Below are positions 13,931-24,866 of a DNA stretch of 34,172 nucleotides, piece by piece. The notes under the pieces are model-generated. The model saw only the letters and a list, made by a program, of their open reading frames with translations. It was not told the origin of the DNA and searched no databases. The stretch comes from Fidelibacterota bacterium (GTDB lineage Bacteria; Fidelibacterota; Marinisomatia; Marinisomatales; Marinisomataceae), in contig JAAZXT010000033.1 in NCBI GenBank assembly GCA_014240005.1, forward strand, positions 1-34,172. The letters are read 5' to 3'. Position numbers and translations under genes: made by a program. The number at the start of each line of letters is the position of its first letter. The stretch's first letter is position 1.

Positions 13931-13949
13931 ATTGAGATTTAATCTCAAT
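13931..13949. promoter_or_regulatory. Palindromic operator 1: ATTGAGATT-T-AATCTCAAT
   Basis: Perfect 9-1-9 inverted repeat; inner 15-mer TGAGATT-T-AATCTCA is in the 7-1-7 format typical of Fur-superfamily boxes. Confidence 0.7.
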
Positions 13950-13975
13950 TATACTTGCATCTAGATTCTTTCTAT

Positions 13976-13981
13976 TATAAT
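13976..13981 (+). promoter_or_regulatory. Putative -10 element (TATAAT) of the TonB receptor transcript
   Basis: TATAAT immediately upstream of operator 2; possible weak -35 TTGCAT at 13955-13960 with a short 15-bp spacer. Confidence 0.45.
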
Positions 13982-14000
13982 ATTGAGATATAGTCTCAAT
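13982..14000. promoter_or_regulatory. Palindromic operator 2: ATTGAGA-TATAG-TCTCAAT
   Basis: Same 7-bp arms and 19-bp length as operator 1; 51 bp centre to centre. Confidence 0.7.
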
Positions 14001-14009
14001 AGCATATAA

Positions 14010-16400
14010 ATGGGAATGATAAAAAACATAACAATATTATTAGGATTCTTTAGTTTAATTTTCGCTCAAACTACCGTGTCTGGTGTAGTAACAGATGAAA
14101 ATAATAATCCTGTTGCTGATGCTAATATTATTCTTTCAAACGGTAAAGGTACAACAAGTGGTAGTGATGGTAGTTTCATATTTACTGCAATAGTTCCTAT
14201 AACAGCAACATTTTCAGCAATTGGTTACGCAGATAAAAACGTATCAGTCAATGATGAAAGTGTGTCTGTAGAACTATCAAGCAAACCTGTAGCATTAGAT
14301 GCTGTGGATGTATTAGCAGATGCTGCTAGTATTACATCAGGTATGTTCTTAAGATCTGTTAGACCAAGTTCTGTTGTTTCAGAATCAGAATTAAAACAAT
14401 TTGATCACACCGACATTCATCGTGTCGTATCACGTATTCCCGGAGTTTATGTACAGGAAGAAGATGGTTTAGGTTTAAGACCTAATATCGGAGTTCGTGG
14501 TACAGGTCTATTACGTATGGAAAAATTAAATGTAATGGAGGATGGTATTATTATTGCACCGGCTCCATATGCATCACCAGCTGCGTATTATTCTCCAACA
14601 ATGGGGCGTATGCAGTCTTTAGAGATACGTAAAGGATCTACTCAAATTAAACACGGACCTTTCACTACAGGTGGATCATTAAATTATATATCTACTTCAA
14701 TTCCTTCATCAGTATTAAATAATGTTGCTTTTACCACTGGAAGCTTTGGTAAAACAGTATTACACGTTAAATCAGGAAATACAGTAGGGCAATGGGGTTA
14801 TTTATTTGAGATTTACAACGATATGACTAATGGTTTCAAAGAATTATATGGCGGAGGAGATACTGGTTATGCTAAAACTGATGTATTAGCTAAAGTTCGT
14901 TATTCTATGAACGCTAACCATGCTTTAGAAATGAAAGTTTCTATGACAGATGAAATCTCAGATGAAACATATCTTGGATTATCAGATGATGATTATGCTA
15001 CTAACCCATTAAGAAGATATCGTGCGTCCCAACTAGATGAGATGGATGCAGATCATACTCAAGTAGTATTATCATATGCTGGTAAATTATCAGATAATCT
15101 ATCTCTAGCTATAAGTGCTTATAATAATGAGTTCGCCAGAAATTGGTACAAATTAAATAAAGTAAATGGTCAAAAACTTAGCGTTGTTGCAAACCCAAGT
15201 AGTGATCAAGATACTTTTTTATTAATGAGTGCAATGGATAGTGATGCAGATGCATACAGAATTAAAGCTAATAATCGTGAATATTTATCAACTGGTGTTC
15301 AAGCAGTGTTAAACTGGAACGCTGGTAATCATGATGTGCAGGCTGGAATGCGCATACATTCAGACGAAATGGATCGTTTCCAATGGGAAGATAGATATCA
15401 AATGGTTGCAGGAAAGTTAAATATGACTACAGCAGCAATCCCTGGTTCTGACTCTAATAGAATCGATTCTGCAGAAGCTGCTGCAGTGTACGTTGAAGAT
15501 AGAATGATTTCTGGTGATTGGACTGTCACAAGCGGTGTAAGATATGAAGAAATCACTGTTAAAAGAAAAGATTGGGGTAAATCAGACCAGTTTCGTGCTA
15601 CGGATCCATCAGTTAAAGAACAAACATTTAATGTGATTGTTCCTGGTGTAGCAATTGAGTATGGATTACAAGATGGAACTACGCTTGCATATGGTATTCA
15701 TAAAGGATTCGCTCCTTATGGACCAGGTGGTGTTAAAGTAGTTGATGGTGCTACTCAAGAAGTAGAGCCAGAAACAAGTTGGAATCATGAATGGACAGTA
15801 AGATCTTATGAAGGTTTGAACGGATTAGAGCTAACATTCTTCATGAACAACTATGATAACTTGCTAGGATCAGATACTGCTGCTTCAGGTGGCGGAACAG
15901 ATGAACTATATAATGGTGGTGCTGTTGACGTGGCTGGATTAGAATTATATCTTAGACGTATGTTAATGGATAATGGTACTGTACAGTTACCGATTGAAAT
16001 TTCATATACAAAAACTAATACTGAATTTAAAGAATCATTTACTACCGCTTATGAAGGATGGCCAGATGTTTCATCTGGAGATGAACTTCCTTATATACCT
16101 GAAACAATGGTAGCTGTAAACTTAGGCGCAAACTGGGATAAAACTTCAGTAAACGTTGGCTTAAAACATACTTCAGAAATGAGAACAACAGCAGGATCAG
16201 GTCGATTAACTGACGCAAATTCTACGGATGCACTTACTATAGTTGATTTAGGCATAAAATATGCACTTCAAAGTAATTTAACCCTATCTATGGGTGTTAA
16301 AAACCTATTGGACAAGGATGCTGTTGTAGCAAGAAGACCTTATGGTGCTCGTCCTACAATGCCAAGAAGCATTACTTTTGGAATAAATTATATCTACTAA
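14010..16400 (+). CDS. TonB-dependent outer-membrane receptor with N-terminal carboxypeptidase-regulatory-like domain, FecA (Fe-dicitrate)-like
   Basis: TVSGVVTDENNNPVADANIIL; plug LRPNIGVRGTGLLRMEKLNVMEDG...APYASPAAYYSPTMGRMQSLEIRKGSTQIKHGPFTTGGSLNYIS; SDETYLGLSDDDYATNPLRRYRASQLDEMD is typical of FecA-like receptors; C-terminal barrel with LGIKYALQSNLTLSMGVKNLLDKD. ATG at 14016 is an alternative start. Confidence 0.92.
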   Translation: MGMIKNITILLGFFSLIFAQTTVSGVVTDENNNPVADANIILSNGKGTTSGSDGSFIFTAIVPITATFSAIGYADKNVSVNDESVSVELSSKPVALDAVDVLADAASITSGMFLRSVRPSSVVSESELKQFDHTDIHRVVSRIPGVYVQEEDGLGLRPNIGVRGTGLLRMEKLNVMEDGIIIAPAPYASPAAYYSPTMGRMQSLEIRKGSTQIKHGPFTTGGSLNYISTSIPSSVLNNVAFTTGSFGKTVLHVKSGNTVGQWGYLFEIYNDMTNGFKELYGGGDTGYAKTDVLAKVRYSMNANHALEMKVSMTDEISDETYLGLSDDDYATNPLRRYRASQLDEMDADHTQVVLSYAGKLSDNLSLAISAYNNEFARNWYKLNKVNGQKLSVVANPSSDQDTFLLMSAMDSDADAYRIKANNREYLSTGVQAVLNWNAGNHDVQAGMRIHSDEMDRFQWEDRYQMVAGKLNMTTAAIPGSDSNRIDSAEAAAVYVEDRMISGDWTVTSGVRYEEITVKRKDWGKSDQFRATDPSVKEQTFNVIVPGVAIEYGLQDGTTLAYGIHKGFAPYGPGGVKVVDGATQEVEPETSWNHEWTVRSYEGLNGLELTFFMNNYDNLLGSDTAASGGGTDELYNGGAVDVAGLELYLRRMLMDNGTVQLPIEISYTKTNTEFKESFTTAYEGWPDVSSGDELPYIPETMVAVNLGANWDKTSVNVGLKHTSEMRTTAGSGRLTDANSTDALTIVDLGIKYALQSNLTLSMGVKNLLDKDAVVARRPYGARPTMPRSITFGINYIY

Positions 16401-16502: not shown

Positions 16503-17228
16503 ATGAAAAAAATATTAGTAATGATGATTTTTTCAAGTATTATTTTTGGACAATATCACATGCAATCTTCTCTAAGTATTAGAGATGGAGTTAAAGCTAC
16601 AGATTTTGAAAGCGCAATGATACATCACAATAAAGCACATCAAAATGAATTAGGAGCAGTAAACACTTTTCTTGTGCTTAATGGACCTAATGTGGGTCAA
16701 TATGTAAGAATGCATCAAGGATTATTTCCAATTCCAGCTGATCAATTAGATGCAATTTATAATGCACATAATAATCACGATCCAGTACCTTACGATAAAT
16801 GGAATGACAGTATGTTGAAACAAGAAACTGGCACTCAGTTTTATACCGTAAGAGGTGACTTGAGCTATAACATGCAATATAAACCTGACTATAAATATCT
16901 TACTATGTCAGTGTTCCAAATTGCTCAAGGTGGAAATGCTTATGCTGAGAATGTTTTTGCAATGATGAATGAGATTAGAGCAGAAATGGGATCTACAGAG
17001 CATTTTGTATGCATGCAGATGAATACAGGCGGAAAGTTTAATGAATATGTTTTTGCAACTGGTCACGATACAATGTCTGAAACTTTAGATCAGTCAGCGT
17101 TCTATGCAGCTCTTGCTAAACTTGCTGAGAAGAATCCTGATTGGGATAAAGAATGGGGTCAAAATGTTTGGGGTGGTTATAGCCAAACAATGGAGTTTAG
17201 ACCTGAGTTAAGTACGCAATTAGATTAA
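16503..17228 (+). CDS. Secreted protein of unknown function with internal duplication (possibly tandem dimeric alpha/beta-barrel-like halves)
   Basis: Signal MKKILVMMIFSSIIFGQ; RBS AAAAGGAAC; halves ending FYTVRGDLS and YSQTMEFRPELS with a similar layout. Confidence 0.6.
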   Translation: MKKILVMMIFSSIIFGQYHMQSSLSIRDGVKATDFESAMIHHNKAHQNELGAVNTFLVLNGPNVGQYVRMHQGLFPIPADQLDAIYNAHNNHDPVPYDKWNDSMLKQETGTQFYTVRGDLSYNMQYKPDYKYLTMSVFQIAQGGNAYAENVFAMMNEIRAEMGSTEHFVCMQMNTGGKFNEYVFATGHDTMSETLDQSAFYAALAKLAEKNPDWDKEWGQNVWGGYSQTMEFRPELSTQLD

Positions 17229-24224: not shown

Positions 24225-24866
24225 ATGATATATAACATATATAAGCCTAAAGATTTTTCTTCTTTTAGTGTTGTGAAGCAAATTAAGAGGATTACACATG
24301 AAAAAGTGGGACATTCAGGTACATTAGATCCGTTTGCTGACGGTGTTTTAGTATTGGGTGTTGGTAAATCAACTAAAAAATTATCAGATATCATTCAATA
24401 TGATAAGACTTATGAAGGTGTGATAAAATTAGGAAAAAAAACAGATACAAAAGATCTTACAGGAACTGTTATAGGTAAAGAAAAGGTTCCTAATATCAAT
24501 GGTATTGATTTTGAGAAGATTTCTCAATCATTTTTAGGTATTCAAATGCAAGAAACTCCAATGTATTCAGCGAGAAAAGTTAATGGAGTTAGACTGTATA
24601 AGCTTGCTAGAAAGAATATTTCAGTTAAGAGAAATCCTAAGCAGATTGAAATTAAGTATTTAAAGTGTACCGTTATTGATAGTGATACATTGCAAATTAA
24701 AGTGGAATGTTCATCTGGGACATATATTAGGGTTTTGGCAGAAGATATAGCAAAGAAAATTGGTACTGTAGGTCATTTAATAAAACTAACACGAACAACA
24801 GTAGGATCTTTTTCATTAAATGACTCATTAACTGTAGAAAAATTTGAGGAAGAATGGAAGTCATAA
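24225..24866 (+). CDS. truB: tRNA pseudouridine(55) synthase
   Basis: YKPKDFSSFSVV, KVGHSGTLDPFADGVLVLGVGKSTK, MYSARKVNGVRLYKLAR. Confidence 0.97.
   Translation: MIYNIYKPKDFSSFSVVKQIKRITHEKVGHSGTLDPFADGVLVLGVGKSTKKLSDIIQYDKTYEGVIKLGKKTDTKDLTGTVIGKEKVPNINGIDFEKISQSFLGIQMQETPMYSARKVNGVRLYKLARKNISVKRNPKQIEIKYLKCTVIDSDTLQIKVECSSGTYIRVLAEDIAKKIGTVGHLIKLTRTTVGSFSLNDSLTVEKFEEEWKS

Follow-up and report, generated by a model that had tools for sequence, protein, structure and literature searches.

Twin palindromic sites at the promoter of a FecA-like receptor gene as probable Fur operators of a lineage-specific type in SAR406/Marinimicrobia

The window analyzed here, a stretch of 34,172 nucleotides, is contig C13 of an 812-kb genome that is 93.5% complete. 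The nearest named records to the TonB-dependent receptor encoded in it were from genomes of Candidatus Neomarinimicrobiota (SAR406/Marinimicrobia), an abundant uncultured marine group, and the host is a marine bacterium of SAR406 with a tiny genome. The receptor gene (14010..16400, plus strand), which is presumed to be the regulated gene at this locus, encodes a protein with Pfam plug, barrel and CarboxypepD_reg domains, and its orthologues point to the ATG at 14016 as the possible true start. When the receptor was searched against the PDB, E. coli FecA was the only match (E ~5e-21), whereas its scores against the NCBIfam TonB-siderophor and FecA models were below the curated cut-offs (97.9 bits against a cut-off of 1100 for the FecA family). 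On these grounds the protein is regarded as FecA-like rather than as FecA, and the earlier designation "FecA-like" was a fair one. The gene upstream of the receptor in the window encodes a TolB-like protein. Downstream, an ORF of 241 amino acids (16503-17228) with no Pfam or NCBIfam match follows the receptor gene and may be co-transcribed with it.

Two 19-bp palindromes, neither assigned to a strand, were found before the receptor gene: ATTGAGATTTAATCTCAAT at 13931..13949 and ATTGAGATATAGTCTCAAT at 13982..14000, hereafter putative operators 1 and 2. Both have the form ATTGAGA-N5-TCTCAAT with identical 7-bp arms, and their centers are 51 bp apart, exactly as in the original prediction. Operator 1 begins 6 bases past the stop codon of the upstream gene and is palindromic in all nine base pairs about a central T, whereas seven of nine are paired in operator 2. 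The core of operator 1, TGAGATT-T-AATCTCA, has the 7-1-7 symmetry of Fur-type boxes, and the half-site of TGAGATT-N-AATCTCA matches both the classical TGATAAT and the Riemerella TTAGAAT at five of seven positions. The exact pattern TTGAGA-N5-TCTCAA was present in three copies in the window, compared with 0.01 expected from shuffled sequences, and in four copies in the genome, compared with ~0.1 expected from base composition and none for the reversed pattern. The third copy in the window (24511-24527) probably occurs by chance because it is located inside the TruB gene. The fourth copy in the genome lies 25 bp before a gene encoding an FTR1/EfeU-type iron permease. Also on the strand of this permease gene, a small gene for a lipoprotein that appears cupredoxin-like by eye was found upstream of it (L188:7385-7828).

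Operator 1 is located just upstream of a putative -35 element (TTGCAT, 13955..13960, plus strand), and operator 2 lies on the -10/+1 region, at a position kept in the genus, where it overlaps a putative -10 element (TAATAT, 13978..13983, plus strand) by 2 bp. These hexamers are weak and gave no match at the threshold of a sigma-70 consensus scan; the arrangement TTG-N3-N17-TAWWAT, with its 17-bp spacer, was nevertheless kept in 17/17 orthologous promoters of the genus. The motif TATAAT (13976..13981, plus strand), which had been pointed out as the promoter element lying directly against the downstream palindrome, is present and does adjoin operator 2. It is probably not the -10 element itself, however, since it lies only 15 bp from TTGCAT; it was also less well conserved in the 17 congeneric promoters than the 17-bp register, and TAATAT, two bases further on, probably takes this role.

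The two-site layout was conserved upstream of the orthologous receptors in all 17 promoters, a feature on which the original prediction depended. Operator 1 had both arms exact in 14 promoters and a single arm change in the other three; operator 2 was recognizable in all of them, with an eroded left arm in three genomes (G008, G009 and G022). The spacing between the operators was 51, 52 or 53 bp in the 16 promoters that allowed site 2 to be positioned, because the sites abut the -35 and -10 elements around the fixed 17-bp spacer. Such a layout predicts that a protein bound at the two sites would occlude both promoter elements. As a spacing of 51-53 bp amounts to about five turns of the helix in each of these 16 promoters, two bound Fur dimers might additionally contact each other cooperatively on the same face of the helix, or through a loop. 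We consider this addition unlikely. The layout alone is no argument for cooperativity, since the spacing tracks the promoter geometry, and the fixed spacer with sites abutting both elements explains the 2-bp variation. Moreover, the three genomes with an eroded site 2 still keep site 1, and the FTR1 and fur promoters carry only one site at the exact-match level. The cooperative or same-face binding originally put forward is thus one of the weaker parts of that prediction.

The palindromes could in principle act in RNA, as hairpins or as a transcription terminator in the spacer that separates the TolB-like and receptor genes. The predicted RNA folds of -6.2 and -8.1 kcal/mol for the two palindromes (z ~-3.7) and the location of operator 1 so close to the upstream stop codon would be in accordance with this. 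However, neither a T-run nor a terminator-like site was found in the scan, and site 1 is expected to lie outside the receptor transcript because it is upstream of the putative -35 element. In addition, the same motif precedes unrelated genes, including those for FTR1, flavodoxin and Fur, and among congeners the gene upstream of the receptor changes while the box stays. A function as RNA structure is therefore extremely improbable, and the palindromes are discussed below as DNA operators.

To identify further genes bearing the box, 24 congeneric genomes were surveyed with the exact pattern TTGAGA-N5-TCTCAA and a reversed-pattern control. The survey yielded 50 exact sites and five control sites (p ~2e-10 in a simple sign test, in which sites related by descent are not independent). 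The most frequent contexts were the FecA-like receptor (18 sites), the FTR1 iron permease (14 sites) and an uncharacterized lipoprotein of ~160 amino acids (11 sites). FbpA-like binding proteins and flavodoxins accounted for two sites each, and single sites were found before a PPOX-type flavoprotein gene divergent from a rhodopsin gene, before a gene for a DUF5916 protein and inside the TruB ORF. Genes without a known link to iron stood behind two of the 50 sites. When one mismatch was allowed, intergenic sites added a Peripla_BP_2 binding protein (heme/siderophore/B12-type) and more flavodoxin genes, and the remaining matches, which were inside unrelated ORFs, were rejected as coding coincidences. 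The box is thus located on the promoters of iron-uptake genes across the relatives, and the enrichment before iron genes that had been proposed as a check was observed.

The box upstream of the ~160-amino-acid lipoprotein gene, the product of which has no Pfam or NCBIfam match, was present in no fewer than 11 congeneric genomes (L157:1577-2065, L161, L162, L166, L170, L171, L181, L183). This gene appears beside a second TonB receptor gene in G015, G019, G020 and G021, and the lipoprotein is a candidate for a role at the surface as a partner in the uptake of metals. In G002 (L064, ~1501), the box lies between the rhodopsin gene and the divergent PPOX-type flavoprotein gene, where it might couple light-driven pumping to the iron state of the cell.

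The search for candidate regulators, also proposed with the original prediction, identified a single Fur per genome. Fur (PF01475) was encoded in one copy in 20 of the 24 genomes of the genus, including all eight near-complete ones, and the other four genomes are incomplete. The PF01475 score was 102.8 bits against a cut-off of 23.1. The Fur of the genus, a protein of 154 amino acids (G000:C55), retains the regulatory ligands H33, E81, H88 and H90, the four structural cysteines and the recognition residues Tyr56 and Arg57, as is characteristic of Fur proteins. At the auxiliary metal site (H87, D89, E108, H125), the Fur of the window's genome has Q, D, S and R, respectively. Its metal response could differ because three of these four ligands are lost; to our knowledge, this site does not define every Fur, and its loss alone does not exclude a protein from the family. 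No protein over the cut-off was found for the DtxR family in any of the 24 genomes, nor was an Rrf2-family protein found in them, and the search thus yielded no regulator of the DtxR/IdeR or of the Rrf2 (RirA/IscR) type to go with the operators.

Box and fur gene were linked in the wider order, across which the G-type box also exceeded its control. In nine genomes of six other families, the box preceded the start of fur by ~10-13 bp, an arrangement expected of an autoregulated gene. In contrast, the fur gene of the window's genus (L192:3980-4444; congeners L035-L054) lacks the box and follows a gene for a UvrD/PcrA-type helicase, named by eye from its sequence. Genome reduction in this genus was accompanied by an apparent loss of fur autoregulation.

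These operators could also serve a regulator of iron genes other than Fur, for instance the one TetR-family protein that the genus encodes. Most genomes of the genus encoded one TetR, with a match in 19 of the 24. In families f7 and f8, elsewhere in the order, a TetR-family gene adjoins the box (L198, L200, L202, L208), being divergent from the receptor gene in G060 (L202). In the window's genus, however, the TetR gene was not adjacent to the receptor gene wherever both could be placed. The box directly before fur in the nine genomes mentioned above also argues against a TetR regulator, as do the targets, since iron-uptake and flavodoxin genes form a classic Fur set, and the arm, which differs by one base from that of a Bacteroidota Fur box with experimental support. 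Control by TetR or another non-Fur protein is consequently very unlikely, and Fur is retained as the regulator that probably recognizes the box.

A protein of the Fur family might bind the box and yet sense peroxide or manganese instead of iron, in the manner of PerR or Mur. The top-scoring NCBIfam model for the Fur of the genus was a PerR, though far below its cut-off, and the degenerate auxiliary metal site would be compatible with such a function. The Bacillus PerR box, TTATAAT-N-ATTATAA, shares the 7-1-7 symmetry of the present box and carries T at both -6 and -4. In PerR, Asn occupies the position of Arg57, as it does in the Bacteroidota Fur examined, whereas the Marinimicrobia Fur has the Arg typical of Fur. 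PerR and Fur are further distinguished by Asp in the former and Glu in the latter at the position of PerR Asp104, and Glu was found here. While Bacillus PerR controls a peroxide regulon, the targets of the Marinimicrobia box were iron transporters and flavodoxin, without peroxide-defence genes. Sensing of peroxide or manganese is thus very unlikely, and an iron-responsive Fur is the preferred reading.

The box was also compared with those of characterized Fur proteins. The Fur box of Riemerella anatipestifer, ATTTAGAATTATTCTAAAT, lies in promoter fragments that were bound by purified Fur in EMSA, before genes for Fe(III)-dicitrate and heme receptors and <100 bp from the start codon (PMC5609570). 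The present sites share with it the 19-bp palindrome with ATTNAGA...TCTNAAT arms and the location before an iron receptor gene, likewise <100 bp from its start, but have G in place of T at position 4 of each arm. In common with the classical Fur box (E. coli, GATAATGATAATCATTATC; TGATAAT-N-ATTATCA), they have 7-1-7 symmetry and five of seven half-site bases, with Tyr56 and Arg57 in the corresponding Fur. They depart from it at two half-site positions, where G replaces T and T replaces A, and they do not fit the overlapping 21-bp form bound by two dimers, being instead two separate boxes ~51 bp apart. Relative to the Magnetospirillum Fur-feoAB1 operator complex (PMC4506495), the recognition helix keeps Tyr56 and Arg57, whereas the Fur of the window's genome has Arg at the position of Lys15 and Arg at position 52 (SRAT).

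In Bacteroidota and Balneolota, the receptor orthologues had palindromes of the ATTTAGATTTAGTCTAAAT type (ATTTAGA-N5-TCTAAAT) at a similar place, and these are close in sequence to the Riemerella Fur box. A Marinimicrobia regulon based on this T-type box was considered and rejected: it gave one match in 61 genomes, below the reversed control, and is essentially absent there. The G-type box, by contrast, occurred across Marinimicrobia, which agrees with the earlier view of a lineage-specific box. Many upstream sites of gammaproteobacterial homologues, candidates for canonical Fur boxes, looked AATGATAATCA-like, with raw scores of 9-13/14 that serve as a hint only.

The Marinimicrobia and Bacteroidota boxes differ chiefly at half-site position -6, where the former have G and the latter T. 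All Marinimicrobia Fur examined had the helix SRAT[VL]YR, with Arg57, whereas all examined Bacteroidota and Balneolota genomes with the T-type box had SRAT[VLI]YN, with Asn57. In solved MgFur-DNA complexes, a conserved guanine is contacted by Arg57 through bidentate hydrogen bonds, and the substitution R57A abolishes binding (PMC4506495). The lineage-specific spelling of the box can be reasoned from this, as Arg57 would read G and Asn57 would read T, and the match between helix and box sequences suggests a residue-base code. An extended code, in which position -6 (G or T) would be read by residue 57 (Arg or Asn) and position -4 (G or T) by residue 52 (Arg or Leu/Val), is advanced only tentatively, at somewhat less than even odds. 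Its four corners, with residues 52 and 57 given in that order, would be TGATAAT for classical Fur (Leu, Arg), TTATAAT for Bacillus PerR (Val, Asn), TTAGA for Bacteroidota Fur (Arg, Asn) and TGAGA for Marinimicrobia Fur (Arg, Arg), so that, if the code is true, this locus supplies the fourth corner. The pairing of Arg52 with G at -4 is weaker than the match at residue 57, and only four lineages were compared. Classical Fur with Leu52 also tolerates G at -4 in some natural sites. The contrast of one residue and one base between two related phyla offers a clean natural test of how operator specificity changes in Fur-family proteins.

Taken together, both palindromes are very probably operators for the single Fur repressor of the organism, with a probability of about 0.9 as judged from comparative sequence analysis. 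The Fur-type operator proposed in the original prediction was supported, and neither the enrichment nor the orthologue conservation check spoke against it. Under iron sufficiency, Fur dimers loaded with Fe(II) would occupy operator 1, against the -35 element, and operator 2, over the -10 element and transcription start, and RNA polymerase would be excluded from the receptor promoter. Under iron scarcity, Fur would be released and the FecA-like receptor would be produced. The same box would control the FTR1 permease in the window's genome and, elsewhere in the genus, the FbpA-like and Peripla_BP_2 binding proteins, flavodoxin and the lipoprotein. The promoter very probably represents an ordinary kind of Fur-controlled system with two Fur boxes. 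The literature searched contained no description of this exact box, of an iron regulon or of Fur in SAR406. Comparative genomics here provides this lineage with a predicted iron regulon and Fur box, and its iron-stress genes can therefore be predicted by sequence. Outside these gene contexts, two boxes ~44 bp apart, TTGAGAATCAGTCTCAA and TTGAGATTCATTCTCAT, were found in G033 (L195, ~1466) with no clear adjacent gene.
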